Shown piece after piece: positions 3,273 through 19,799 of a stretch of DNA of 25,720 nt. This DNA comes from a virus. Made by a program: the position numbers and the translations under genes. Positions within the stretch are counted from its first letter, which is position 1. The number at the start of each line of letters is the position of its first letter. The notes under the pieces were generated by a model. That model ran no database searches. It had not been told where the DNA came from and was given only the letters and a program-made list of their open reading frames with translations. The stretch lies in the IMG/VR virus record IMGVR_UViG_3300007734_000516, positions 1 through 25,720 of that record. The stretch is one strand, 5' to 3'.

Positions 3273-4910
3273 TTAATAGCTAAACGTTCTGCCTGACACT
3301 GCATTTGTATTTTCCTCGTAGAACTGGCAATTGCTGACGCAGAGGTAGCGCAAGCAATCAATGGGATCTTTGGTGGCTTCGTCCCGTCCTCCCTTGGCGG
3401 TGTACTCCTGCATTGAGTAGATCAAGTTCTGGCAGCGATCCGAGATGTAAAGCTTTGGCCCATTCAAGCTGGTGATTGGCTTTGTGTCGTCGTAAGAGAG
3501 CAGATTGTTGATTAACTGAAGCCCGTTCTCGATTTCCACGCCTGGAGCTGGGATAAAGGTCATCCCGGCGTCATCAAGGTCGGATATGATGGTGGTGGCA
3601 CCATCTGCTGATTGCTTTTCAGCCGCACCCAAGCGTGGATCAATGAAGCGTTCGTGAACCTCTTCGCCGTTTTCGCTGTTCTTGATTAAATCGACGTAAT
3701 CGAGGATTCCTTTACGGGAACCTTTCTGGGCCGGCCCCGCTTTGCCTTCAGCGGTAGAACCGGGCAAAGCCCAGTCATCGTAATCGGGCCACTCTCGGTA
3801 GACCCACCAAGTACCGGCTGAGTCGATGGCAACCCAGAGCATAAACCAGTTTTTGGATCCTGCGGGATCAAGGGCCATGAAACGGGTGACTGCATAATCT
3901 GCGTTTTTGAGCCAAGGGAGTTTGTCGTGGTCAATGACGTTGATGTCTTTGCTGAATCCAGAGAAGACGCTGGTGACTGATTTAGTTGGGATGCCATATG
4001 CTCTAGCAAGGATCTCTTCTTTTCGCCTTCCTCTGATTTTATGCTGGAAATCACGGGTGTCGATGAAGGCGTTGTCTTCCGTCCAGAAGTAATAAATAAC
4101 CGCACCAGGGCGCGAGAGCGACTCTTGGATAACGGGGAGTTCTTTGCCAACCAACGGAGCGAATCGTTTTTTGATTGTACGAGTTTTGCCCAGGATGTCC
4201 TGAACCAGCGGAGTCCAGCCCGTGAGCGTCGTGAACGTGAGGATAATGCGGCCATGGTAGTCGATTGTTCTGTATTGCAGGGTTTCAAACATTCTTTGGG
4301 GACATTCTTCGTCGCACCAGATGAGATGCGCCTTGTAACCTTCCGCCACCTGAGCGTCTGCTTGGTACTGGCGATAATTCCCAAATTTAATAGTGCCACC
4401 GCGCCGAGTCCCGGCAAGAGGTGGAAGGATGCAAATGTTATCAGTAAATCCATTTTTCTGAGAGTACTGAATTGAGTGGTTGATGCCCTTTTTACTAGGC
4501 AGATTGCGAATGCCAAGCGGAATGGCATCCCAGATCATTCGCTGTTGGTCTTCAATGCTGCGATCCTCGTTAACGTGATACGCTCTGACCTCGGCGGCGG
4601 GGATAGTGCCTGCGGCCCACATACACAGGCGTGAAGCAATGGTGCTTTTAGTGGAACGGTTGCCCCCAAGAATGATGTGAACCTGATACTTTGACCAATT
4701 GTCCATGACATCTTTCCATGCAGGCAAGATCCACCCCGCCCCAACCGGGTTGTTAACCGCTTCAAGCTGCCTCTGCTGCCTGAACGTGTAATAATTGACC
4801 AGTTTCTCCTTAGACCAAGTCCCCATTTCCTTTGAACTAGGGTTTTCTACCCAAGGTATACCAAAATTTGGACTGTGATCATCCGCAAAGTCTACGTCAC
4901 CGATAGGCAT
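3273..4910 (-). CDS. terL: Terminase large subunit (TerL): packaging ATPase and nuclease
   Basis: A 545-aa protein that drives DNA packaging and cuts the concatemer. The N-terminal ATPase shows a Walker A variant GGNRSTKST at residues 82-90, a Walker B HLIWCDEE at 195-202 (catalytic Glu after Asp), and a coupling motif LTFTTLTGW around 224-232. The C-terminal RNase H-like nuclease shows three well-spaced acidic sites: D348 in MALDPAGSKNW, D424 in RFIDPRLG, and D515/D518 in KDPIDCLRYL. Length fits the family. It starts 5 bases after the stop of a 59-aa gene and is followed by the portal, so it heads the packaging operon. The ATG at 4910 has no Shine-Dalgarno motif and probably depends on coupling. 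Confidence 0.95.
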   Translation of the reverse strand: MPIGDVDFADDHSPNFGIPWVENPSSKEMGTWSKEKLVNYYTFRQQRQLEAVNNPVGAGWILPAWKDVMDNWSKYQVHIILGGNRSTKSTIASRLCMWAAGTIPAAEVRAYHVNEDRSIEDQQRMIWDAIPLGIRNLPSKKGINHSIQYSQKNGFTDNICILPPLAGTRRGGTIKFGNYRQYQADAQVAEGYKAHLIWCDEECPQRMFETLQYRTIDYHGRIILTFTTLTGWTPLVQDILGKTRTIKKRFAPLVGKELPVIQESLSRPGAVIYYFWTEDNAFIDTRDFQHKIRGRRKEEILARAYGIPTKSVTSVFSGFSKDINVIDHDKLPWLKNADYAVTRFMALDPAGSKNWFMLWVAIDSAGTWWVYREWPDYDDWALPGSTAEGKAGPAQKGSRKGILDYVDLIKNSENGEEVHERFIDPRLGAAEKQSADGATTIISDLDDAGMTFIPAPGVEIENGLQLINNLLSYDDTKPITSLNGPKLYISDRCQNLIYSMQEYTAKGGRDEATKDPIDCLRYLCVSNCQFYEENTNAVSGRTFSY

Positions 4911-5225: not shown

Positions 5226-6104
5226 ATGAATATCAAACGTAATATCCTGATCGCAACCCCCTTAAAAGGGGATGTTCCCAAAAACTATTTTGTGACCAGC
5301 CTGCAACTGGCTGCACAGAAACTGTCCGACATCAAACTGGATTGGATTTTATTGGATGGCCCAGCCGTGCAAATGGCTAGAAATCAACTGGCGGCGTATG
5401 CCATTGAGAAGAATTTCCATGAATTGATCTTCTGGGACAAGGATGTGGTCGCTCAAACGGACGGGCAAAACACTACGGTTTCTGCAATCATGCGTTTGAT
5501 CTCTCATGACGTCGATATGGTGTGCGGAATTTACGGAACCCGCTCAATGGACACACATTGGCACGTTCAACCGCTGCCTGGAGAGCAACCGGGCCTGGAT
5601 GGTCTGCAAAAGGTCAAGCGTTGCTGCATTGGCTTCTCCAAGATCAAGACTTCCGTCTTTAAGAAGCTGATTGTCGATAACCCAGACCGCCTTGCCATCA
5701 TGGCTGACCCCAATCACGAACCCAAGGTCATTCCTGAGCTTTTCCCAATGGGCATCCAAGGCAAAAACACCCCTGAAAGTCGTTTGTCCGAGGTCAAGGC
5801 TATCTTAGGTGACCAAACCCTTCAGGATCACACCAAACTGGCCCGCATCGACCGCGAGCTAGGTTTAACCTACGACGAAAAGAACTTCTATGCCGGCGAA
5901 GACTATTGGTTCTGCGATCTGGTTCGAGCCAGCGGCTTTGAGGTTTACCTGGATACAAACCTGATGATGAGCCACACCGGATCAGCCAACTTCCCCATCT
6001 CAACGGAGGAGCTGGTCAAAGCTTTGAACGAACCTTGGCGCAAAGACGAGATCATTGCCATCAAGAAGAAGTTTGCTGAAGCCAAAAACCCTGCTCCCAA
6101 ATGA
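5226..6104 (+). CDS. GT-A type glycosyltransferase-like protein
   Basis: A 292-aa protein from the ATG at 5226. It has the order of a family 2-like GT-A nucleotide-sugar transferase: start strand NILIATPLKGDV, a DKD metal-binding motif at residues 71-73 (LIFWDKDVVA), GIYGTRS near 101, a GEDYWFC acidic motif at 224-230 (probable catalytic base region), and MMSHTGS at 248-253. The frame is open 37 codons further upstream to a TTG at 5115, but the family's first strand begins right after the 5226 ATG, so I prefer that start; the gap would then be a divergent promoter region. Phage enzymes of this kind can modify DNA bases or virion or host surface glycans; the acceptor is not visible. The next gene overlaps its stop by 4 bases (ATGA). 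Confidence 0.75.
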   Translation: MNIKRNILIATPLKGDVPKNYFVTSLQLAAQKLSDIKLDWILLDGPAVQMARNQLAAYAIEKNFHELIFWDKDVVAQTDGQNTTVSAIMRLISHDVDMVCGIYGTRSMDTHWHVQPLPGEQPGLDGLQKVKRCCIGFSKIKTSVFKKLIVDNPDRLAIMADPNHEPKVIPELFPMGIQGKNTPESRLSEVKAILGDQTLQDHTKLARIDRELGLTYDEKNFYAGEDYWFCDLVRASGFEVYLDTNLMMSHTGSANFPISTEELVKALNEPWRKDEIIAIKKKFAEAKNPAPK

Positions 6105-6541
6105 CAAACTTGTACAGACACTACAACACAACGGGAATTTTGCTTTATGTTGGAATTTCTATTTCAGCAATAAAAAGACTTTCTGAACACGCAGTCCAGT
6201 CTCGATGGTTTAATCAAATTGCTGTGATCAAAATTGAAAAATTTGAAACAAGAGAAGAGGCTCAATTAGCAGAAAAACAAGCGATTGAACAAGAAAGCCC
6301 CTTATTTAACATTAAGATGGTTCCTCGAAAAGTAGACGTTCCCTTTGTTAAATCCAATAGGCTGCTAACATTCCGAGAAGTTAATGCAATGATTGGTTCA
6401 ATTTGTAAAACTGCGCATCCCGCTTTAAATTTAGCCAGAAAGGGCTTGATTGAATCTGTTAGAATTAATGAACGAACAATACGATTCAACGAGGCAAGCG
6501 TACACAAATTTGTTGCTGGTAAAATTGGAGTATTGGCTTAA
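6101..6541 (+). CDS. GIY-YIG nuclease fused to excisionase-type HTH
   Basis: A 146-aa protein overlapping the preceding stop by ATGA. Residues 4-70 form a GIY-YIG nuclease: LYRHYN and LLYVGIS stand for the two name-giving strands, followed by a basic helix (AIKRLSEH), the metal-binding glutamate E58 in EEAQLAEKQAI, and N70. Residues about 85-140 (LLTFREVNAMIGS ... RTIRFNEASVHKFV) match the pattern of helix-turn-helix domains of the excisionase/HTH_17 type. GIY-YIG proteins with a DNA-binding tail are often homing endonucleases or cargo nucleases. The gene is clearly more AT-rich than its neighbours, which fits recent transfer. Catalysis is inferred from motifs; the usual R is displaced. Confidence 0.82.
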   Translation: MTNLYRHYNTTGILLYVGISISAIKRLSEHAVQSRWFNQIAVIKIEKFETREEAQLAEKQAIEQESPLFNIKMVPRKVDVPFVKSNRLLTFREVNAMIGSICKTAHPALNLARKGLIESVRINERTIRFNEASVHKFVAGKIGVLA

Positions 6542-9046: not shown

Positions 9047-9675
9047 TCACAATTTCATCACTAATGGAAAGTGTCGGCGGCCTTTCCGCTCCTTCTAAAA
9101 TGCCTTGTTTTGGCTATTCAATACCTGCGGCACGGTGCAAGATCGGGCGGAAAATGCGAAAAGTGGCGGGTAGCATTTGCAGCATATGCTATGCCTTGAA
9201 AGGCCGGTATGCTTTCCCTAATGTCTCGAATGCCTTGGAACGGAGATTTCAGAAGATTAGCGGCAAATCATGGGTTCGCGACATGATTGCCGTAATTTCT
9301 CGCGTTGAAGTCAGCGGGTATTTCCGCTGGCACGACGCCGGGGATTTGCAAAGCGTGGCGCATCTAAAACGCATCGTGGCAATTTGCCAAGGCACACCAC
9401 AAATCAGACATTGGCTTCCAACGCGCGAGTATACCACCGTCAGGAAATTTTTAGAGCAAGGTGGCGTGATTCCCCCGAATCTCACGATTCGCCTTAGCGC
9501 TCTAATGATTGATGGACCAGCGCCGGAAAGCCTCGCAAAGCGTCTTGGCGTGCAAGTTTCGGGCGCGAGTGCATCCGCTTATTCGTGTCCTGCACCGTCG
9601 CAAGGGAATGTCTGCGGCGATTGTCGGAAATGCTGGAGCAAAGACACTTTTAACGTGTCCTACAAGGTCCACTGA
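9043..9675 (+). CDS. GP88-family phage protein
   Basis: A 210-aa protein matching the pattern of the 'gene product 88' family known from mycobacteriophages and many other phages: a CxxC in SICSICYA (C46, C49), YFRWHDAGDLQS (residues 93-104), LPTREY (125-130), PPNLTIRLSA (144-153), a C182, and a terminal CGDCRKCW cluster (C191, C194, C197). The fixed Cys, His and Asp residues suggest a metal or Fe-S centre, but the function of the family is not known to me. The start overlaps the previous stop (ATGA) and is preceded by AAGGGGGG as Shine-Dalgarno. A strong terminator follows 20 bases after the stop, ending this three-gene operon. Confidence 0.85.
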   Translation: MITISSLMESVGGLSAPSKMPCFGYSIPAARCKIGRKMRKVAGSICSICYALKGRYAFPNVSNALERRFQKISGKSWVRDMIAVISRVEVSGYFRWHDAGDLQSVAHLKRIVAICQGTPQIRHWLPTREYTTVRKFLEQGGVIPPNLTIRLSALMIDGPAPESLAKRLGVQVSGASASAYSCPAPSQGNVCGDCRKCWSKDTFNVSYKVH

Positions 9676-9695
9676 AATTTCCCTTCGCTCCCATC

Positions 9696-9726
9696 GCCCT
9701 TCCCCTAATCCGGGAAGGGCTTTTTT
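9696..9726 (+). terminator. Rho-independent terminator after GP88 gene
   Basis: Perfect 9-bp stem GCCCTTCCC (9696-9704) / GGGAAGGGC (9712-9720), 7-base loop, then TTTTTT at 9721-9726. Confidence 0.93.
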
Positions 9727-9751
9727 ATGTCCATTTTTTTTCGGGTGCGAT

Positions 9752-9966
9752 GGCCAGGGCGCCAGGGCGAGGCAAGGCGAGGCAAGGCGAGGTCGGGCGA
9801 GGCGGGGCGAGGTCGGGCGAGGCGGGGCGAGGTCGGGCGAGGCGAGGCGAGGCAAGGGCAGGGCGAGGCGAGGCAGGGCAGGGCGAGGCGAGGCGAGGCG
9901 AGGCGGGGCGAGGCGGGGCGAGGTCGGGCGTGGATGGGCGAGGCGAGGCGAGGCAAGGGCGAGATC
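9752..9966 (+). repeat. G-rich GGCGAGG array
   Basis: About 215 bases built from imperfect units such as GGGCGAGGC, GGGCGAGGTC and GGCAAGGC. G runs of two to four recur on the plus strand, which fits G-quadruplex-forming DNA or RNA. Long ORFs here exist only because the period is a multiple of three or lacks stops; they are low-complexity and not credible genes. It is the first part of a 736-bp gene-free stretch (9676-10411). Confidence 0.85.
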
Positions 9967-10012
9967 GGGCCGGCCAGCGCGGCGCGGCCCAGTTGGCCGG
10001 CGCGGCCTCACC

Positions 10013-10307
10013 GCTTGGCTTGACCGGCTTGACCCAGCCGCTTGACCGCTTGATCGGCTTGACCCGTTTGATCGGCTTGATCCGCTTGATCGGCTTGATC
10101 GGCTTGATCGGCTTTGATCGGCTTGATCGGCTTTGATCGGCTTGATCGGCTTTGATCGGCTTGATCGGCTTGATCGGCTTGATCGGCTTGATCGGCTTGA
10201 TCGGCTTGATCGGCTTGATCGGCTTTGATCGGCTTTGATCGGCTTGATCGGCTTTGATCGGCTTGATCGGCTTGATCGGCTTGATCGGGTCGACCGAGCT
10301 TGACCGC
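10013..10307 (+). repeat. 9-bp tandem array, unit CTTGATCGG
   Basis: About 25 copies of TTGATC in a 9-bp period, with occasional 10-bp units carrying an extra T and edge units of TTGACC. Each unit has a GATC. The unit looks like the -35 box of the promoter immediately to its right (TTGACC at 10328). There are no spacers, so this is a minisatellite, not a CRISPR array. A degenerate copy of the same layout lies at 11335-11545. Confidence 0.92.
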
Positions 10308-10327
10308 AAATAAATAATAATAGACGC

Positions 10328-10356
10328 TTGACCCAACTCACCTAGTGTGCATTCTC
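10328..10356 (+). promoter_or_regulatory. Promoter P1, TTGACC-17-ATTCTC
   Basis: -35 TTGACC (10328-10333), 17-bp spacer, -10-like ATTCTC (10351-10356), preceded by an AT-rich UP-like stretch (10308-10321). The same -35, spacer length and -10 occur at 11568-11596, and a close form at 14673-14701. It drives the ORF at 10412. Confidence 0.7.
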
Positions 10357-12200: not shown

Positions 12201-12211
12201 CATAACATGAC

Positions 12212-13411
12212 ATGGATACTACCGAAACAACTACACACCTTGGCCTGTGCGCTGGGTACGGAGGCATTGAGCTTGGACTCAAACGAGTCATCCCAAATCT
12301 GCGCTCAGTCGCTCTTTGTGAGATCGAAGCCTTCGCAGTTGCGAATCTGGTCAGCAAAATGGAGGCGGGACTCATGGAGCCAGCACCTATTTGGACGGAT
12401 CTTAAGACCTTCCCTTGGGAAAGCTTTCGAGACAAAGTGGACATCCTCTCTGGCGGTTATCCGTGCCAACCATTTAGTGCAGCCGGCAAGCGACTTGGAG
12501 GTGAAGACCCCAGGCATCTCTGGCCCTACATCGCAGATGGAATTCGACTTCTTCGACCCAAGCTCTGTTTCTTTGAAAACGTCGAAGGACACATTAGTCT
12601 CGGACTCCGAGAAGTCGTTGGAGAACTGGAACAAATTGGTTATTCAACGGCGTGGGGAATATTCTCAGCGGCTGAAGTTGGCGCACCGCACCAGAGAAAG
12701 CGGGTCTTCATCATGGCCTACCGTGACCGCGAACGAGGACAGTTATCGAATTGGTGGAGAGAGTCAGCAGAGCAAATGCCTTTCAGCGATGGCGAGACGA
12801 GGGGAAATGTCTGGCCTAGTCGCCCCGGTCAACCCCAGCACGCATGGGAAGGATGCGAATTGGCCGACACCGATACAAGGGGACAGTCACTTGGCATCAA
12901 CGCCAGAAGCGGCTCAACGCAGGATTGCAGAGGGCAAAGTTACACTCTCAAGACTAGTGGAGTCTGGCCTTCCCGCCCCGGTCAACCCCAGTACGGATGG
13001 GAGCCACCAAGAGTCGTGGGCAACGCCGAGAGCAGGCAAGACAACGGACGAGAACCCGGAGACTTGGGCGGCGAGGCAAGCCAAGGGGGATGTGGCACCT
13101 GTGCCGCTGACGGCGCAAGTGAAGGCGTGGGCGACACCGACAATAGGCGGCGAGGAAGGAGCGGAGACGAGACTAGCGAGAGGCAGGGACATGGGTCTGC
13201 ACGCGCAAGTGGGAGCGATGAAAAACTCAGCCAAACTGAACAGTCGCTGGGTGGAAACCCTGATGGGTCTGCCGGTGGGATGGACTATGCCGAGCTGTGC
13301 GTCACCTGTGACAACCGTACTGACGAACTCCGCCTCCTCGGCAACGGAGTCGTCCCTGCCACCGCAACCCTAGCCTTCCGCACCCTTCTTCAAGAAATTA
13401 TTTCCGCTTAA
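12212..13411 (+). CDS. DNA (cytosine-5) methyltransferase
   Basis: A 399-aa C5-methyltransferase. Motif I LCAGYGGIELG (residues 12-22, SAM binding), motif IV GYPCQPFSAAG (82-92, catalytic C85), motif VI ENVEG (122-126), motif VIII QRKRVFI (161-167), and a C-terminal motif X LLGNGVVPATATLAFRTL (375-391). Between motifs VIII and X the sequence is Gly/Asp/Ser/Arg-rich, with a repeated VWPSRPGQPQ element at about 200 and 250. It would methylate phage DNA, probably against host restriction; no cognate endonuclease gene is nearby. The target site cannot be read from the sequence. A second conserved protein is encoded in another frame of the same DNA (12537-13373). The start is 11 bases after the previous stop, without a clear Shine-Dalgarno. 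Confidence 0.95.
   Translation: MDTTETTTHLGLCAGYGGIELGLKRVIPNLRSVALCEIEAFAVANLVSKMEAGLMEPAPIWTDLKTFPWESFRDKVDILSGGYPCQPFSAAGKRLGGEDPRHLWPYIADGIRLLRPKLCFFENVEGHISLGLREVVGELEQIGYSTAWGIFSAAEVGAPHQRKRVFIMAYRDRERGQLSNWWRESAEQMPFSDGETRGNVWPSRPGQPQHAWEGCELADTDTRGQSLGINARSGSTQDCRGQSYTLKTSGVWPSRPGQPQYGWEPPRVVGNAESRQDNGREPGDLGGEASQGGCGTCAADGASEGVGDTDNRRRGRSGDETSERQGHGSARASGSDEKLSQTEQSLGGNPDGSAGGMDYAELCVTCDNRTDELRLLGNGVVPATATLAFRTLLQEIISA
12537..13373 (+). CDS. Overlapping out-of-frame gene nested in the methyltransferase
   Basis: A 278-aa reading frame from ATG 12537, +1 relative to the methyltransferase and wholly inside it. The protein has order and motifs I recognise from a family of phage proteins of unknown function that travel with cytosine methyltransferases: MEFDFF, SLKTSKDT, SDSEKSLENWN, RRGEYSQRLKLAHRTRESGS, repeated SWPTVTAN / NWPTP / SWATPRAG / AWATPTIGG blocks, then LNSRWVETLMGLPVGWT and a Ser/Pro-rich end. 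Random out-of-frame readings do not give such ordered motifs, so dual coding is likely. An in-frame start at 12207 would add 110 residues without family features, so 12537 is preferred. No Shine-Dalgarno motif is seen. Function is not known; an accessory to the methyltransferase is inference. Confidence 0.68.
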   Translation: MEFDFFDPSSVSLKTSKDTLVSDSEKSLENWNKLVIQRRGEYSQRLKLAHRTRESGSSSWPTVTANEDSYRIGGESQQSKCLSAMARRGEMSGLVAPVNPSTHGKDANWPTPIQGDSHLASTPEAAQRRIAEGKVTLSRLVESGLPAPVNPSTDGSHQESWATPRAGKTTDENPETWAARQAKGDVAPVPLTAQVKAWATPTIGGEEGAETRLARGRDMGLHAQVGAMKNSAKLNSRWVETLMGLPVGWTMPSCASPVTTVLTNSASSATESSLPPQP

Positions 13412-13438: not shown

Positions 13439-13693
13439 ATGCCTTCACCAATAACTTTTCAAATCCTTATCCGCCGTAAGCGCCGCGCTCTCGGTTTAAC
13501 CCAGGCCCAGCTTGCAGCTATGCTCGACATCTCCCACAGGACTTTAGACTCTTGGGAGCGGTCAGAAATAAACCACAAGCCGCACATCCTGACCCAGGAG
13601 GCCGTCTGGGCGCGGATAGCTGCCTTCGATGCCCCTCCCGTCCCGCTTGACCCGCTTGATCCAGCTCTCTCAGCAGCTCCAGCAACGCCCTAA
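13439..13693 (+). CDS. XRE-family (Cro/CI-type) DNA-binding protein
   Basis: An 84-aa protein with a helix-turn-helix of the Cro/C1 type at about residues 7-48 (LIRRKRRALGLTQAQLAAML, ISHRTLDSWERSE). Short proteins like this are typical phage regulators, acting on operators in the early region. The C-terminal 20 residues are unstructured Pro-rich (VPLDPLDPALSAAP), encoded by a CGCTTGACCCGCTTGATCC stretch resembling the intergenic minisatellite. It lies 27 bases after the methyltransferase stop. The targets are not known; the TTGACC/TGACC promoter repeats are candidates. Confidence 0.85.
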   Translation: MPSPITFQILIRRKRRALGLTQAQLAAMLDISHRTLDSWERSEINHKPHILTQEAVWARIAAFDAPPVPLDPLDPALSAAPATP

Positions 13694-15314: not shown

Positions 15315-15830
15315 ATGAAACTATATCAAATCCCATCGCAGATCGAAGAGATCTTCAGCTTCATCGACCAAGTACTCGCAGACGAGAGTCTGGCCGAAAA
15401 CGAGAAACAGGGCAAACTTGCCACCCTTAAGGATCAGTTAAATCTTGTCCAGATGGAGCGCAGGCAGAAATGCCTGTGGCTCTCACGCCAGTTCTTGAAC
15501 CTCCAGGCCGAGCGCATGGCGGTCAACGAACAACGCCAGAAGTTCAGCGAGCGCGTCGCCCGGCTGGACAAGCAGACCGAGTCCATCAAGAACTTCCTTG
15601 GCGTCATTCTCGACGCCGGCGAGAAGATGGCTGACGAGGTGACGCAGATCTCTTGGAGGAAGTCCGAGGGAGTCATTCTGCGGTGCGATCCTGAGTCCCT
15701 TCCTGCCCGTTTTACCCGCATCAAGGTCGAAGCCAGTCTCACCTCCCTCAAAGAGGCTTTAAAGGCTGGAGATCGCGAAGCGGCCCAAGTCGCCGTCCTT
15801 GAGCAGCGTCAAACCATTGCCATCAAATGA
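15315..15830 (+). CDS. Gp157-family protein
   Basis: A 171-aa protein with the plan of the siphovirus Gp157 family: an N-terminal helix with LxxLxxQLxL pattern (residues 10-45), a long charged coiled-coil middle (residues 45-110: RQFLNLQAERMAVNEQRQKF, ERVARLDKQTESIKNFL), then a beta-rich end with a W-R-K-S-E pattern (ISWRKSEGVILRC) and a closing helix. The family lies in replication/recombination clusters of phages beside SSB or recombinases; its exact role is unproven. It has a Shine-Dalgarno AAGGAA 8 bases before the ATG, rare in this arm. The stop overlaps the next start (ATGA). Confidence 0.85.
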   Translation: MKLYQIPSQIEEIFSFIDQVLADESLAENEKQGKLATLKDQLNLVQMERRQKCLWLSRQFLNLQAERMAVNEQRQKFSERVARLDKQTESIKNFLGVILDAGEKMADEVTQISWRKSEGVILRCDPESLPARFTRIKVEASLTSLKEALKAGDREAAQVAVLEQRQTIAIK

Positions 15831-17424: not shown

Positions 17425-17507
17425 GCGCATTATTCTGCCTCATTATTTCAGTCTTGGCCTTCTGCGTAGGTTATATGATGGGCTACCTATCGAGAGATCT
17501 AAAATGA
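17421..17507 (+). CDS. 28-aa single-pass membrane microprotein
   Basis: ATG at 17421 and stop TGA 17505-17507, overlapping both neighbours by ATGA. Sequence begins MSALFCLIISVLAFCVG and is followed by YMMGYLSRDLK, with one hydrophobic helix (about residues 3-22) and a basic end. The two exact overlaps in a chain of coupled genes support real translation; it is too short for standard gene callers. Function is unknown; small membrane peptides of phages can alter host membrane or act in exclusion, which is only a suggestion. Confidence 0.6.
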   Translation: MSALFCLIISVLAFCVGYMMGYLSRDLK

Positions 17508-18082
17508 AACACTTAAACTTAACGCCAAAAGAATTTTGCTCTGCCACCAACGCTTGCCGAGAAGGCCGAGTATTTTGCGAGAAATACAACACGATGGCAG
17601 AGGTTTGGGACGCGTGTAAGAAAGCAGAGTGGCTCCTCTGGATTTTAAGGGCTATCGACGCTCCAGCGAATGAAAAGAACGAGCGACTGTTCGCAGTTTG
17701 GTGCGCTCGAAACACTCCAATGCACGACGGACGCACGACGGGCGCATTGCTCACTGATCCACGCAGTGTGGCAGCTCTTGAGGTTGCCGAGCTATTTGCG
17801 TACGGGAATGCAACTAAGGAGGAGTTGGCTGCGGCATCGGCTGCGGCACGGGCTGCGGCATGGGATGCGGCTGCGGATGCGGCTGCGGATGCGGCATCGG
17901 CTGCGGCATCGGCTGCGGCACGGGCTGCGGCACGGGCTGCGGCATGGGATGCGGCATCGGCTGCGGCATGGGCTGCGGCACGGGCTGCGGCACGGGCTGC
18001 GGCATGGGATGCGGCTGCGGATGCGGCTGCGGATGCTCAGGCAAATCAATTTCGCACAATGATCAGTAATCCATTCAAATGA
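17504..18082 (+). CDS. Ala-rich repeat protein with immunity-like N-terminal domain
   Basis: A 192-aa protein in two parts. Residues 1-115 (MKHLNLTPKEFCSATNACRE, AEWLLWILRAI, RLFAVWCARNTP, LTDPRSVAALEVAELFAYGN) resemble a family of 'putative immunity' proteins common in phage and metagenomic genomes. Residues 108-180 are a tandem repeat of AAARAAAWDAA and AADAAADAA, encoded by GCTGCGGCNNGG units at about 17828-18036; the DNA is repetitive in codons as well. The tail NQFRTMISNPFK is ordinary. It overlaps the microprotein (ATGA) and the next gene (ATGA). The length of the repeat probably varies between related phages. What it is immune to, if anything, is not visible. Confidence 0.68.
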   Translation: MKHLNLTPKEFCSATNACREGRVFCEKYNTMAEVWDACKKAEWLLWILRAIDAPANEKNERLFAVWCARNTPMHDGRTTGALLTDPRSVAALEVAELFAYGNATKEELAAASAAARAAAWDAAADAAADAASAAASAAARAAARAAAWDAASAAAWAAARAAARAAAWDAAADAAADAQANQFRTMISNPFK

Positions 18083-18471
18083 TGACGCAAATGAACACGG
18101 AATTGAACACGGAATTGAACACACCTACACCCCGCACCGACGCCGAATGGTCTGCGTCGTTTGACGAATATTCGCAGCAACTTGAAACCGAACTCACCGC
18201 GCTCACCGCCGAGCGCGACCAACTCCGCGCCGAGTTTGAGAAGATTGCTGTCACGTCAGCCCAATTGGCCGACAACAACGTGAGTTTACGGCAAGAGCGC
18301 GACCAACTCCGCGCCGAACTCGCCACCGAGCGGGCGCGGCTGGACTTTCTGAGTAAACGCGACGGCGCATTTGATCATATACGGTGGGGCGATTATCGCC
18401 ACTATTGGGGAAGGGGCTTTGGTTCCATAAGAGAAATTATCGACGCGGCAATGAAAAAGGGCGCGAAATGA
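18079..18471 (+). CDS. Coiled-coil phage protein (130 aa)
   Basis: A 130-aa protein starting MMTQMNTELNTELNTPTPRT with a twofold MNTELNTELN repeat. Residues 30-95 are a strong coiled coil (QLETELTALTAERDQLRAEF, RQERDQLRAELATERARLDF). The C-terminus (SKRDGAFDHIRWGDYRHYWG, SIREIIDAAMKKGAK) resembles the end of small phage proteins of unknown function. It overlaps the previous gene and the next (ATGA at 18468). Confidence 0.72.
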   Translation: MMTQMNTELNTELNTPTPRTDAEWSASFDEYSQQLETELTALTAERDQLRAEFEKIAVTSAQLADNNVSLRQERDQLRAELATERARLDFLSKRDGAFDHIRWGDYRHYWGRGFGSIREIIDAAMKKGAK

Positions 18472-19237: not shown

Positions 19238-19392
19238 ATACTCGTCCTGCCATCAAAATGCCTCCCGAAAAAGTCCTAGAGCTAAAGAAGCTCCGTTCCG
19301 AGGGGAAAACACTCGGTCAAATTTCCCTTAAATTTGGCATCTCCACCGCTTACGCCTGGCGTATCATCAAGGGGCTTAATCGCGTCCTGTAA
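19234..19392 (+). CDS. Small HTH protein (52 aa)
   Basis: ATG at 19234 in ATGA overlap, stop TAA 19390-19392 overlapping the next ATG by one base (TAATG). It starts MNTRPAIKMPPEKVLELKKL and carries one helix-turn-helix, GKTLGQISLKFGISTAYAWR (about residues 24-43), of the resolvase/Hin-like type. A single-domain DNA-binding protein. Too short for the usual length cut-off but firmly framed by the two overlaps. Confidence 0.72.
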   Translation: MNTRPAIKMPPEKVLELKKLRSEGKTLGQISLKFGISTAYAWRIIKGLNRVL

Positions 19393-19799
19393 TGAACGAC
19401 GCCGACCGCCAAGCCGTCCTTGCCCTTTTCCCCAATGCCTCCGCTGACTTCATCCAACGTAACATCGAGGGCTTCCTTCGCCCACGTTCGCCTCTGGCTC
19501 CCAAAGTATGTGACCCCAAGCCTAAACACCATGCTAGGCCGAAACCATTGGATCCTCACAAAGATGAAGAAAGAAGCCAGAACAGCTCTCAAGCTCGCGT
19601 TAAAGTCACGATCACTCGCCACGGATCCAAGCTCCTCGACATCGACAACGGCGCCGGTGGTTGCAAAGCCCTGATCGATGCCCTCCGTTACGAGAAGTGC
19701 ATCGTCAATGACGATCCCGGCACTATTGATTTTGTCTTCCGTCAGGTCAAAACCACCAAAGACAAGCGGGGCACAGAGATCCTGATTGAGCCAGCTTAA
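19392..19799 (+). CDS. RusA-like Holliday junction resolvase candidate
   Basis: A 135-aa protein. Residues about 68-130 follow the RusA pattern: VKVTITRHGSKLLDIDNGAG, CKALIDALRYEKCIVNDDPG, TIDFVFRQVKTTKDKRGTEI. In RusA, Asp residues in a D-x-D-N context and an Asp after the helix bind metal, and Lys (CKALIDAL) acts in catalysis; these are present here as LDIDN, K, and NDDP. The N-terminal half is different (FPNASADFIQRNIEGFL, Pro/Lys-rich linker), so this is a shortened or divergent form. RusA enzymes resolve branched DNA before packaging. The stop overlaps the convergent minus-strand gene end. Confidence 0.7.
   Translation: MNDADRQAVLALFPNASADFIQRNIEGFLRPRSPLAPKVCDPKPKHHARPKPLDPHKDEERSQNSSQARVKVTITRHGSKLLDIDNGAGGCKALIDALRYEKCIVNDDPGTIDFVFRQVKTTKDKRGTEILIEPA

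Follow-up and report, generated by a model that had tools for sequence, protein, structure and literature searches.

One Phage Gene Read in Two Frames Probably Encodes Both Chains of a Two-Subunit C5-Cytosine Methyltransferase

Two overlapping reading frames at the methyltransferase locus

The window, as we call the whole stretch of DNA analyzed here, is a 25.7-kb uncultivated virus record. PHROG matches to a terminase large subunit (3273-4910, minus strand) and to Mu Gam-like, RusA-like and endonuclease-like genes (15315-15830, 19392-19799 and 6101-6541, respectively) identify it as a tailed-phage genome or a fragment of one. Since close copies of the locus on bacterial contigs (L164, L165, L166 and L169) come mostly from Verrucomicrobiota, including a Pedosphaera MAG and Geminisphaera colitermitum TAV2, this is the suggested host group of the phage. 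Elsewhere in the window, long low-complexity open reading frames with RSSRSS/KPIKPIKADQ and GEARRGKARSG repeats occupy several frames on both strands at 9502-10341, and a repeat-rich frame with many AAARAAAW/DAAADAA units lies at 17504-18124, where several frames are open (HGLRHGMRLRM in another).

The methyltransferase frame, denoted alpha, runs from 12212 to 13411 on the plus strand and encodes 399 residues with the features of a C5-cytosine methyltransferase large subunit. It matches PF00145 (E=1.2e-31), the match being limited to residues 11-182 and stopping at motif VIII, and its profile aligns with M.HhaI and M.HaeIII across motifs I-VIII. Motif I (LCAGYGGIELGL, 12245-12280), motif IV with its PCQ and catalytic cysteine (GGYPCQPFS, 12452-12478) and motif VI with its ENV (ENVEG, 12575-12589) all fall in invariant columns of alignment A2 of 84 alpha sequences, in which motif VIII (QRKRVFI, 12692-12712) is also found. 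Motif X (DELRLLGNGVVPATA, 13322-13366) is likewise marked by invariant columns, and the segment containing it, alpha residues 369-397, is matched by residues 294-322 of phrog_1008. The initial annotation credited this frame with the complete set of C5-methyltransferase motifs. This holds for I-VIII and X and fails for motif IX, which does not appear ahead of motif X in alignment A2. The target-recognition region (TRD) and motif IX, which one-frame enzymes carry on the same chain as the other motifs, are not on the alpha chain. A small gene resembling helix-turn-helix regulators (13439-13693) is located directly 3' of the methyltransferase.

The second long plus-strand frame, denoted beta, lies in the +1 frame relative to alpha (12207-13373) and encodes 388 residues, a putative TRD/motif IX subunit with what would be an overprinted N-terminal part. 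It matches phrog_1008 with E=3.8e-13 and is represented by alignment A1 of 84 sequences; across the family of the window its length ranges from 285 to 535 residues. A conserved helix (SLENWNKLVIQRRGEYSQRLKLAHRTRES, 12609-12695) contains W141, R149, Y152 and R155, all invariant in A1, and is the best-modelled beta segment, with local pLDDT up to 96. It is followed by a variable region of WPT/WPTP/WATP blocks (12714-13235), situated between motifs VIII and X at the place of a C5-methyltransferase TRD, as seen in A1 and A2. In alpha, the same DNA reads as a low-complexity linker with a conserved WPSRPGxPQ...WEPPRVV. Beta then shows a near-invariant motif-IX-like sequence, LNSRWVETLMGLPVGWT (13236-13286), whose consensus, LNPxWVExLMGLPxGWT, is located at the place that the TRD and motif IX take in one-frame enzymes. 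Both long frames and the ordered motifs that had been quoted for the second of them are thus present as first described. So is the direct repeat that codes in both frames: its two plus-strand copies of 41 nt (12809-12849 and 12962-13002) are 153 nt apart and 88% identical, and give VWPSRPGQPQ in alpha and APVNPST in beta.

Selection on the +1 frame

In all 80 loci chosen by alpha alone, the +1 frame is open and homologous, and its phase is always the same. No intact methyltransferase with an interrupted nested frame was found among these loci, and hundreds of relatives conserve the dual-frame arrangement. Synonymous codon shuffling of the window gave a mean longest +1 run of 182 codons, compared to 397 observed. 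The window alone is moderately unusual, as 15 of 2000 shuffles reached the observed length; among distinct homologues, 59 of 69 have a +1 run above all 200 of their own shuffles. Identity in the +2 frame, used as a control, likewise exceeded the shuffles, since all frames are lifted by shared ancestry and joint constraint; this test was therefore dropped in favor of flanking-gene and frame-specific stop tests.

Because related sequences share synonymous codons, divergence in the overlap was compared to that in flanking genes and in the part of alpha outside beta. With protein identity matched, the differences at fourfold-degenerate sites of alpha amount to 0.41/0.36/0.23/0.15 within beta, compared to 0.54/0.53/0.51/0.39 in the genes that flank the locus in these viruses and 0.76/0.73/0.56/0.33 in the stretches of alpha that beta does not cover. 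The share of alpha differences that falls on third positions is 0.42-0.44 versus 0.47-0.61 in flanking genes. The stop test is specific to the frame: in the first 108 codons, none of 2971 alpha-synonymous differences gives a +1 stop, with 242 expected, and +2 stops are not avoided there, with 137 observed and 75 expected. In the remaining codons, 34 +1 stops arise from alpha-synonymous differences versus 260 expected. The 5' part of beta is under the same synonymous constraint (0.31). It should be mentioned that the pairs entering these tests are non-independent, so the values are to be read as effect sizes and not as P-values. The dual coding proposed at the outset is thus backed by comparison, both by the open frames and by the strong constraint on alpha-synonymous sites.

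The start of beta

The overlap had initially been assigned to 12537-13373, with beta starting at the ATG at 12537. This candidate start was ruled out because its methionine is poorly kept, many homologues having T, E, A, D or another residue instead, while an ATG adjoining the alpha start is universal. In the window, this ATG (12207) is located 5 bases 5' of the alpha ATG (12212), so that the two form a twin start, ATGACATG, at 12207-12214 on the plus strand. All 98 distinct homologues whose contig includes a parsable alpha start carry a beta ATG ahead of that start, at a distance of 2, 5 or 8 nt, versus about 4% expected from local ATG density. Three geometries are seen, ATGNNATG in 50 loci, ATGTG with GTG as the alpha start in 40, and ATGN5ATG in 8. 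At least 9 switches between them are required on the alpha tree, which indicates that the beta ATG has been maintained and not simply inherited. Outside the parsed 98, L083 retains the beta ATG and has CTG in place of the usual alpha start codon, and the distant phage C75C1 shows a reversed order, with the alpha ATG first and the beta ATG 7 nt downstream. A Shine-Dalgarno-like core is found in just 32 of 86 loci, and the window has none.

From these comparisons, beta probably starts at 12207 and not at 12537, which makes the overlap about 1.16 kb long instead of 0.84 kb; the claim of dual coding in this region stands, while its start and extent are revised. Across the family of the window, the overlap of alpha and beta ranges from 856 to 1606 nt, with a median of 1224 nt. 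In more compact relatives, beta starts inside alpha, 202 nt in for phage Bloom and 88 nt in for phage K1G, and R9.1 does likewise.

Distribution of motifs between the two frames

Read along the DNA, the window has motifs I-VIII in alpha, the WPTP-type region and LNSRWVETLMGLP in beta, and motif X in alpha, which is the order of a one-frame enzyme. The distance from the start of the motif-IX-like sequence to the GN of motif X is about 35 codons, compared to 29 in the canonical L181 and L186. In one-frame C5-methyltransferases encoded by genomes of the same phylum, the profile match covers the full length (1-323), motif IX is in frame, and the +1 open runs reach only 42-162 codons. The split-type loci L179, L184 and L185 have +1 runs of 327-488 codons with a nested LNPxxxxxLMGxP. 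In the hhalign comparison of beta to canonical C-termini, LNPxWVExLMGLP falls in register with LTPRExxRLQGFP, with weak E values of 0.05-0.28.

Outside the family of the window, beta is nested in the +1 frame, mostly unannotated, at 150 of 159 classifiable distinct loci from diverse phages, which were fetched with beta-type queries. The nested +1 beta is therefore the usual layout in many phage C5-methyltransferases, contrary to the initial expectation that such dual coding is rare. All 65 diverse betas that were compared match phrog_1008, a family named DNA methyltransferase. The point at which the motifs are divided is not fixed. In L168 (2974-4863), L219 (2238-3522) and L321 (2263-3298), alpha stops shortly past motif VIII, and the variable region, motif IX and motif X are on beta. 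In L218, motif IX is inside the open reading frame with I-VIII and motif X is in a different one; L290 similarly has I-VIII and IX in one frame, and such loci are rare. A motif set that stays constant while its split between chains varies is what would be expected if the two chains form one enzyme. Comparison of the sequences shows that both frames, the universal beta ATG and the motif complement are conserved, the last being split between the two frames.

Three loci depart from the arrangement by damage or insertion. L155 (2104-3283) and L157, from two separate datasets, have a single indel close to where motif VIII ends; it exchanges the frames, so that the beta N-terminus continues into the alpha C-terminus and neither gene is intact. 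In L116, an HNH-endonuclease-like frame (1262-1876) is inserted exactly within the motif IX codons, cutting beta short at LNPRWVCTLMNVP without interrupting the alpha frame, a situation also seen with the ShiLan element (PMC11855218).

Structure prediction yielded no usable fold for beta, either with the window protein alone (84 homologues, pLDDT 54.6) or with the compact beta of L198 (65 homologues, pLDDT 60.7). A PDB fold search found no match at E<=0.001, the beta profiles A1 and A4 found no match among PDB sequences up to E 10, and beta matched no Pfam family. The N-terminal 110 residues of beta resemble nothing known. The position of beta, its motif-IX-like sequence and the movement of motif X between the chains nevertheless point to beta as the missing TRD/motif IX part of the enzyme to which alpha belongs, with motif IX recognized from register and place. 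The motifs of the nested protein are thus confirmed, and its initial label as a protein of unknown function has become doubtful.

Proposed mechanism and alternative explanations

Considering the layout of the two frames, we think it likely that this one phage gene encodes both chains of a two-subunit C5-methyltransferase. Based on motif layout, the best reading of alpha and beta together is a variant of the two-polypeptide C5-methyltransferase of the M.EcoHK31I type. We infer initiation at both codons, formation of a heterodimer, the assignment of beta as the TRD/motif IX chain, and the biological role. Ribosomes would initiate at either codon of the twin start, the offset being 2, 5 or 8 nt (in the window, ATGACATG). 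Initiation at the downstream codon would give alpha, with motifs I-VIII and X for AdoMet binding and the catalytic cysteine; initiation at the upstream ATG would give beta in the +1 frame, both proteins arising from one message by competing initiation. The C-terminal part of beta would provide target recognition and motif IX, pack on alpha and complete the enzyme. The alpha-beta complex could then methylate cytosine at a specific sequence in phage (or host) DNA, probably as protection against restriction. As to origin, the ancestor may have been a one-frame enzyme with I-VIII, TRD, IX and X, in which two flanking frameshifts moved the TRD-IX segment to the +1 frame and separate translation then saved that segment. 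Later, in the family of the window, beta would have been lengthened upstream by overprinting until it shared the initiation site of alpha.

Several other explanations were weighed against this two-chain enzyme. That alpha is the sole product, with an open +1 frame that simply follows from conserved alpha residues and stop-poor codon usage, is scarcely credible. The 15 window shuffles that reach the observed length do indicate an intrinsically stop-poor +1 frame, but this reading is already contradicted by the comparative data: most homologues (59 of 69) exceed all 200 of their shuffles, +1 stops number 0 versus 242 expected, synonymous divergence is below that of flanking genes, and the upstream ATG is universal. 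Moreover, beta-type sequence extends beyond alpha in L168, L219 and L321. A real beta that starts internally, at 12537 or as in R9.1, K1G and Bloom, with the open 5' part reflecting some other constraint on the DNA, would agree with the internal starts of the compact relatives (202 nt in for Bloom, 88 nt in for K1G) and with the ATG that some homologues keep at the 12537 position. It is improbable considering that the conserved ATG is the one adjoining the alpha start, that the methionine at 12537 is not conserved, and that the 5' part is equally constrained (0.31) with +1 stops wholly avoided.

The two frames could also be joined by ribosomal frameshifting, which would fuse alpha I-VIII to the TRD-IX part of beta in one chain. 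The rare L218 and L290, with I-VIII and IX in one open reading frame, suggest that such a chain may be tolerated; still, a conserved beta ATG and a conserved beta N-terminus would be left unexplained, and we regard frameshifting as very unlikely. A different role for a genuine beta, either in inhibiting or regulating the methyltransferase or in countering host defence, draws on the lack of a fold match or Pfam family and on the N-terminal 110 residues. Set against it are an alpha without motif IX, a motif-IX-like sequence at the right place in beta, the shift of motif X between alpha and beta, and the constant company of beta and such an alpha. We hold this different role to be unlikely, about as much so as an internal start. 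Within the two-chain enzyme itself, we lean, with less assurance, towards a gene that is dual-coded as a whole, with both subunits end to end on ~1.2 kb, competing starts fixing their ratio, a recognition region resized by repeats read in two frames, and a beta N-terminus born by overprinting.

Comparison with known systems

Natural two-chain C5-methyltransferases include M.AquI, in which alpha has motifs I-VIII and beta the rest of the TRD, IX and X. This motif split is shared by L168, L219 and L321. In the window, by contrast, motif X remains on alpha and the genes overlap over their entire length. For M.EcoHK31I, Lee, Kam and Shaw reportedly described in 1995 a small-chain open reading frame nested in the large one in a different frame, and the two chains of the window are likewise encoded by one stretch of DNA, each in its own frame. 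The large chain of M.EcoHK31I (YGGCCR) has motifs I-VIII and X, as does alpha; in that enzyme, motif IX is confined to the small chain and the TRD is assigned to the large one (PMC3404938). The window differs in that the place of the TRD is read from beta, and in that beta spans the whole of alpha (388 versus 399 residues) from a twin start, with WPTP-type repeats.

Translation of both frames has been described for the AUGGAUG site of Thermus rnpA-rpmH and for AUGUG sites in E. coli, with very few cases of twin-start translation in bacteria named (PMC9841429). The phage gene resembles these in having start codons a few nucleotides apart in different frames, with the AUGUG form in 40 of 98 loci. 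It differs in that the products are of similar length (~400 residues each) and would belong to one enzyme, and in that the spacing varies (2, 5 or 8 nt). Phage methylase genes of the ShiLan type also contain an out-of-frame second protein, an HNH endonuclease (PMC11855218), and L116 has an HNH insert as well; the ShiLan HNH is, however, a mobile insertion and not homologous to beta.

Phages K1ind1, K1G and Bloom carry the same beta family (phrog_1008) nested in the +1 frame of a C5-methyltransferase gene, although their beta starts internally and is shorter. Databases usually list one of the two proteins. Both frames are annotated in Bloom, as two 'DNA cytosine methyltransferase' entries, and in K1ind1, as 'C-specific methylase' and 'Mte8-like'; often, as in R9.1, C75C1, SW3 and Nitzel, only alpha is. 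We found no record that explains the nested protein of K1ind1, K1G or Bloom as a subunit, and a literature search, with most subscription journals outside its scope, found no paper on a widespread nested arrangement. A nested subunit that carries motif IX is known in principle; the end-to-end dual coding from a twin start and the breadth of the arrangement appear to be new.

If the two-chain enzyme is correct, hundreds of phage C5-methyltransferases annotated as one protein would in fact be two. The annotated protein cloned alone, for example in recoded form, would be inactive, and its specificity would have been sought in the wrong frame. The recurring 'unknown' WPTP/LNPxWVEWLMG proteins beside phage methyltransferases would also be accounted for. 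The locus would lend itself, as a natural system, to tests of twin-start translation in bacteria and of the joint evolution of repeats in overlapping frames. If dual coding extends over the whole gene, few other uses of an ambiguous start site would be as long or as widely conserved.
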